The notes under the pieces: generated by a model
Databases searched by the model: none
The model's input: only the letters and a program-made list of their open reading frames with translations
Told to the model about the DNA's origin: nothing
Part shown: positions 8,112 to 9,170 of the stretch, piece by piece
Layout of the letters: each line of letters begins with the position of its first letter
Numbering within the stretch: the first letter of the stretch is position 1
NCBI GenBank assembly: GCA_949296645.1
Contig: CASFPH010000002.1
Coordinates: 62,001-126,000 of the forward strand
Direction: 5' to 3'
DNA length: 64,000 nt
Source: an uncultured Bacteroidales bacterium
GTDB taxonomy: Bacteria > Bacteroidota > Bacteroidia > Bacteroidales > UBA932
Position numbers and translations under genes: made by a program

Positions 8112-9170
8112 ATGGAAGAACAGACTATCAGACTGACACAGTTCAGCCCGGGCGCAGGCTGAGGCTGCAAGATTGCTCCAAAGGATTTGGAGCGCATATT
8201 GAAAGGAAGCGTATCTTCACTTTCATTCCCGAACCTTCTTGTCGGCAACGAAAGCAAGGACGATGCAGCTGTATATGACATAGGAGACGGAAAGGCGATA
8301 ATAAGCACTACCGACTTCTTCACGCCCATCGTGGACAATGCATTCGATTTCGGAAGAATCGCAGCCACAAACGCCATAAGCGACATATACGCCATGGGAG
8401 GAACACCGATCATGGCAATAGCGATTCTGGGATGGCCACTGGCTAAACTTGACGCTGGTGTGGCAGCTGATGTCATAAACGGCGCCAGAAACATATGCGA
8501 CTTGGCAGGCATCCCGCTTGCAGGAGGACACAGCATAAACAGTGCAGACCCGATCTTCGGTCTTGCAGTGACCGGTATTGCCGGAACGGACAGGATAAGG
8601 AAAAACAATCAGGCCAGACCAGGCTGCATACTGCTGCTTACAAAGCCACTTGGAATAGGACTTGCAAGCACAGCAGAAAAATTCGGCTGCGTCAGGGAAG
8701 ATGACAGACTTGCATCACTTGAACTTATGACGACCCTCAATTCCGCAGGCAAATACCTGTCTGAAATCGCCGGAGTAAAGGCAATGACAGATGTAACCGG
8801 ATTCGGACTGGCAGGTCATGCCATAGAAATGGCAGAAGGTAGCAACGTCAGGGCGGTAATATACGAAAACAGCATACCAAGACTGGCAGGATGCGGATAC
8901 TACATTGAAAACGAATGTATTCCCGGAGGAACATACAGGAATTTCAACAGTTACGGAAACAAAATGACACAGGTAAGCGAAAAATGCAAGGCCCTTCTAT
9001 GCGATCCGCAGACAAGCGGAGGCCTGCTGATTGCAGCCGATCCTGATGCTATGGATGAAATAAGGAAAATTTCTGAAAAGGAAAGATTCCCTATATACGA
9101 AATAGGAAGGATTGAGGCAAAGGAAAATCCCGAAAGCAACATCTTCCTTGAAATCATTGAAAAAGACTAA
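8112..9170 (+). CDS. selD: Selenide, water dikinase, selenocysteine-containing (in-frame UGA at 8160)
   Basis: SelD makes selenophosphate from selenide and ATP, the selenium donor for both MnmH and selenocysteine synthesis. The ATG at 8112 opens a frame that meets TGA at 8160-8162 and continues to 9170. Around the UGA the protein reads [23 protein letters not shown], which aligns residue for residue with the E. coli SelD active site. Sec17 replaces Cys17, and the essential Lys20 is kept. Downstream blocks NLLVGNESKDDAAVYD, STTDFF, AGGHSI and LLCDPQTSGGLL are standard SelD. An ATG-only call at 8187 would remove the catalytic residues. The product is 352 aa including Sec. It needs selA, selB and selC elsewhere in the genome. 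Confidence 0.95.
8160..8193 (+). promoter_or_regulatory. UGA selenocysteine codon and SECIS-like hairpin inside selD
   Basis: The UGA codon is at 8160-8162. Downstream, GCTCCAAA (8175-8182) and TTTGGAGC (8186-8193) are perfect reverse complements, giving an 8-bp stem with loop GGA. The loop begins 20 bases after the UGA, within the 16-37 base range described for bacterial SECIS elements, and has G as its first loop base. This element would be bound by SelB during decoding. Confidence 0.85.

Follow-up and report, generated by a model that had tools for sequence, protein, structure and literature searches.

A selD gene with an in-frame UGA codon at its catalytic position in an uncultured Bacteroidales bacterium

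We analyzed a stretch of 64,000 nucleotides (the window) from the genome of an uncultured Bacteroidales bacterium. The window contains a gene for the selenophosphate synthetase SelD, preceded on the same strand by mnmH and a yedF-like gene (Table 1). mnmH and the yedF-like gene overlap, and 22 bases separate the end of the latter from selD. The same mnmH-yedF-selD order is found in another genome of the genus (G001, locus L177), in which the counterpart of the yedF-like gene (L177:4349-4693) is of equal length. The TIGR03527 score of the yedF-like gene is slightly below the cut-off of 110 bits. With mnmH encoded together with selD, the cell also carries the gene set for the selenouridine trait (SelD plus MnmH), so its selenophosphate would serve tRNA selenouridine as well. 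Downstream, a gene of 395 amino acids without an NCBIfam match (9182-10369) lies between selD and tsaE, two genes that directly adjoin in G001. Rfam models at their gathering scores gave no match within the 64-kb window.

Table 1 Features of the selD locus, with positions counted from the first base of the window.
Feature	Position	Strand	Evidence
mnmH (selU/ybbB), tRNA 2-selenouridine synthase, the other selenophosphate consumer	6709..7779	+	NF008750, 371 bits (cut-off 241); TIGR03167, 348 bits
yedF-like gene with the DsrE but not the TusA half	7745..8089	+	TIGR03527 positions 83-194, 100.3 bits; PF02635 DsrE
selD, selenide, water dikinase, 352 aa with Sec at residue 17	8112..9170	+	Reading frame, profile match, alignment to 3u0o
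In-frame TGA, codon 17, for selenocysteine at the catalytic position	8160..8162	+	Aligns with Cys17 of 3u0o; TGC/TGT in homologues
SECIS-like hairpin, 9 bp stem, apical loop GGA (8183-8185), 20 nt past the UGA, -10.1 kcal/mol	8174..8194	+	Fits the bSECIS model (PMC13188914)

When TGA is read as selenocysteine (Sec), selD forms a single frame of 352 amino acids from the ATG at 8112, with the TGA at 8160-8162 as its sole internal TGA. In profile searches the product matches the SelD equivalog NF002098 at 494 bits (cut-off 299), spanning positions 1-342, and TIGR00476 at 408 bits. It is collinear with E. coli SelD (PDB 3u0o) across 332 residues, and U17, C19 and K20 align with Cys17, Cys19 and Lys20 of the E. 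coli enzyme. The residues N-terminal to the UGA form the conserved SelD N-terminus, and the site of the TGA is occupied by TGC or TGT in 109 of the 109 homologues first inspected; together, these two observations exclude a chance origin of the TGA. The observation of a SelD with an in-frame UGA at its catalytic position, first made in a sequence-only reading of this DNA, is real: as proposed there, the SelD N-terminus is encoded upstream and broken only by the TGA, which falls at position 17, the catalytic Cys of E. coli, with Lys20 conserved. That reading placed an ATG at 8187, but the codon there is TTG, and the first in-frame ATG past the UGA is at about 8394. It also held that automated callers would truncate the gene, and indeed a plain gene caller would begin selD at TTG 8187, losing the active site. 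This start is the one point in favor of selD being a pseudogene with a nonsense mutation, or being translated only from TTG 8187 without an active site. We consider this the least probable of the explanations weighed here, since the 352 codons contain no other stop or frameshift, the gene order is conserved, both users of selenophosphate, mnmH and selA, are intact and dependent on SelD, and no second SelD turned up when the genome was searched at the protein level.

The UGA is followed by a SECIS-like hairpin. A published model of bacterial SECIS elements (bSECIS) specifies a loop of 3-9 nt with a G in its first two positions, a stem of 4-16 bp, a spacing of 16-37 nt and an energy of at most -7.5 kcal/mol (PMC13188914). 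The 21-base selD hairpin satisfies the loop, stem, spacing and energy rules, and its A-GGA-U reading agrees with the favored loop pattern. By comparison, the model is satisfied by 237 of 20,000 synonymous recodings (~1%), by 21 of 2,206 mock codons within genes of the window, and by one of 82 Cys homologues. The signal weakens when bulges are allowed in a less strict measure, with 26 of 400 recodings equaling the selD hairpin, so the SECIS evidence taken alone is moderate.

Elsewhere in the genome (2.24 Mb in 60 contigs, 93.9% complete), contig C35 carries selC, selA and selB in that order; selA and selB share an overlap of a few bases. The selC tRNA-Sec has the anticodon TCA and scores 61.9 bits against a gathering score of 47; SelA matches TIGR00474 at 498 bits, and SelB matches TIGR00475 at 342 bits and possesses the C-terminal winged helix (PF09107). 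The sequence-only reading had judged a full sel set probable and had made its claim depend on selA, selB and selC; the genome contains all three, clustered. The other genes on this stretch of C35 look, by sequence, like ordinary housekeeping genes (aspartate carbamoyltransferase, serC, serA, tgt and an LptF/G-type permease) and its G+C content is close to that of the window, which argues against C35 being a stray contig. An attempt to join C35 to its upstream neighbor showed that the contig end upstream of selC is a repeat. About 98 bases at this end (L010:13217-13314) are common to about a dozen contig ends, at 98-100% identity, and the repeat bordering the selCAB cluster is possibly a mobile element.

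The near relatives of this bacterium all encode Cys-SelD, mostly in genomes without selA. The same-genus genome G001 is one of them: its SelD is 70% identical, has a TGC codon at the Sec position, and is encoded in a genome in which we found neither selA nor a tRNA-Sec above the cut-off. Because TGA is a single base from TGC or TGT, the assembly is a draft, and Cys is present in all close relatives including the one in the same genus, we considered whether faulty sequencing or assembly put the TGA into an ordinary Cys-SelD gene. Such an error would have had to strike, by chance, the one codon known as Sec in the SelD family, in the only selCAB-bearing genome of the two in the genus, next to a hairpin given by just ~1% of recodings; we regard it as highly improbable.

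We are highly confident in one explanation for these data as a whole: selD encodes the Sec form of selenophosphate synthetase, with a UGA decoded via selCAB and the hairpin, a product that feeds SelA and MnmH, and a Sec most likely derived from Cys. In the proposed mechanism, SelA would convert the serine on tRNA-Sec to Sec, and SelB, bound to the hairpin in the mRNA, would deliver this selC-encoded tRNA to decode the UGA at 8160. Sec17, acting with Lys20, would then produce selenophosphate from selenide and ATP. Supplied to SelA, the selenophosphate would allow SelD to support its own synthesis; supplied to MnmH, whose gene is clustered with selD, it would be used to make 2-selenouridine in tRNA.

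The sequence-only reading raised the prospect of further selenoproteins; our search of a few families (formate dehydrogenase, AhpC-TSA and thioredoxin) and of the window revealed none. Formate dehydrogenases and other molybdopterin oxidoreductases (PF00384) had no match in the assembly, with positive controls, and none of the 20 AhpC-TSA and 17 thioredoxin family matches in the genome has an internal stop. A GrdA search gave no match in the genome, but also none among its controls, and so carries no weight. A scan of the window for coding frames running through TGA returned selD and only three weak cases, the strongest of which, in a rodA/ftsW-family gene (55677-57116), we rejected because the gene ends normally and shows no family match past the stop. 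Sec-decoding organisms without FdhA have been described as all having Sec-SelD, and mostly also the selenouridine trait (PMC1794560), a description that this genome fits.

Across 393 Bacteroidales genomes, selA is present in 43, so that for this order it is fair to call Sec use rare, as the earlier remark did for Bacteroidota. Four of the 393 genomes encode Sec-SelD, on three separate branches, and all four have selA. Besides the genome described here, TGA occupies the exact Sec codon of SelD in G123 and G230 (family f53) and in G285 (family f117). G127 and G337 have SelD-like genes with TGA codons, which were rejected as Sec codons because they lie off the Sec position. Canonical SelD is encoded in 47 of the genomes, nine of which have selA, and the four Sec-SelD genomes are among these nine; selA thus accompanies SelD in 4/4 Sec-SelD genomes versus 5/43 of the others (hypergeometric probability 126/178365 = 7e-4, kinship ignored). 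A tRNA-Sec above the cut-off was detected in G000, G068, G123, G285 and G322, all of which have selA, and not in G001, G187 or G365. In G230, a 390-contig assembly with both selA and Sec-SelD, selC was not found above the cut-off.

The three other Bacteroidales genes for Sec-SelD (L175, L176 and L172) were inspected for hairpins. Neither L175 nor L176 has one that fits the bSECIS model, and that of L172 is weaker, in line with the remark that some bacterial SECIS elements lie outside the model (PMC13188914).

A tree was built from 85 SelD proteins after masking of the Sec residue. On it, at least three changes are required to explain the Sec state, the starred branches force the same number, and a single clade of the four Sec rows is rejected (p-AU 6e-7). 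The Sec tips are nested within Cys clades, which favors change from Cys to Sec, and we consider a gain of Sec probable relative to an ancestral Sec. The simplest reading of the tree would be a repeated Cys-to-Sec change in SelD, with the opposite polarity less likely; in this genome, Sec most likely replaced Cys after the split from the relatives with Cys-SelD. Published cases run the other way: a 2006 survey by Zhang and colleagues reported Sec-to-Cys changes in SelD and FdhA and no Cys-to-Sec change (PMC1794560), and in a 2026 review the Sec-to-Cys cases are still mainly FdhA and SelD (PMC13188914). The open-access literature that we searched held no later paper on Cys-to-Sec change in SelD.

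The same molecule could have had another history, in which the Bacteroidales ancestor had Sec-SelD and the many Cys forms arose by replacement after selCAB had been lost. Such a loss would force a change from Sec to Cys, and SelD is among the published examples of that change (PMC1794560). In the SelA tree, SelA from this genome groups with that of G068, a member of the same family (support 84), and both fall within a Bacteroidales clade; an old, vertically inherited Sec trait that was lost many times would fit this placement. An ancestral Sec would nonetheless demand far more changes than the three that the SelD tree requires, and several genomes (G068, G117, G308, G322, G237 and G457) have Cys-SelD despite encoding selA; we judge this history unlikely. 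Returning to the gain of Sec, we lean slightly toward a broader account in which Bacteroidales SelD underwent three or more independent Cys-to-Sec changes, all of them in genomes with selA. In the genome described here, SelD may be the only selenoprotein, with the Sec machinery kept mainly for the enzyme that feeds it and for tRNA selenouridine.

The evolutionary pattern of Sec-SelD in Bacteroidales is worth reporting. With this genome, a Sec-decoding lineage joins a phylum, Bacteroidetes, in which the 2006 survey found no Sec decoding (PMC1794560), and a single enzyme now offers three Sec/Cys switches that are phylogenetically separate. The Cys and Sec forms of SelD within one genus, about 70% identical, make a direct comparison of selenophosphate synthesis possible, and selD is an example of a gene whose active site standard annotation would lose by truncation.

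The sequence-only reading had presented the case as a surprise in its own right, but few bacterial selenoproteins are as widespread as Sec-type SelD (PMC9312934, PMC1794560). As a protein family Sec-SelD is known; its presence in this lineage is new. Sec-SelD proteins, with Sec in the catalytic loop, are known from many Clostridia, Deltaproteobacteria and Pasteurellales. Like these, the gene described here has a UGA in the catalytic loop of a full-length SelD, a SECIS-like hairpin downstream and selABC in the genome, and it adjoins mnmH (ybbB), as has often been reported. Unlike them, it lies within a Bacteroidales Cys-SelD clade, and its Sec seemingly has a separate, late origin. Compared with E. 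coli SelD, the protein keeps the overall collinearity as well as Cys19 and Lys20, and differs in having Sec where the E. coli enzyme has Cys17.
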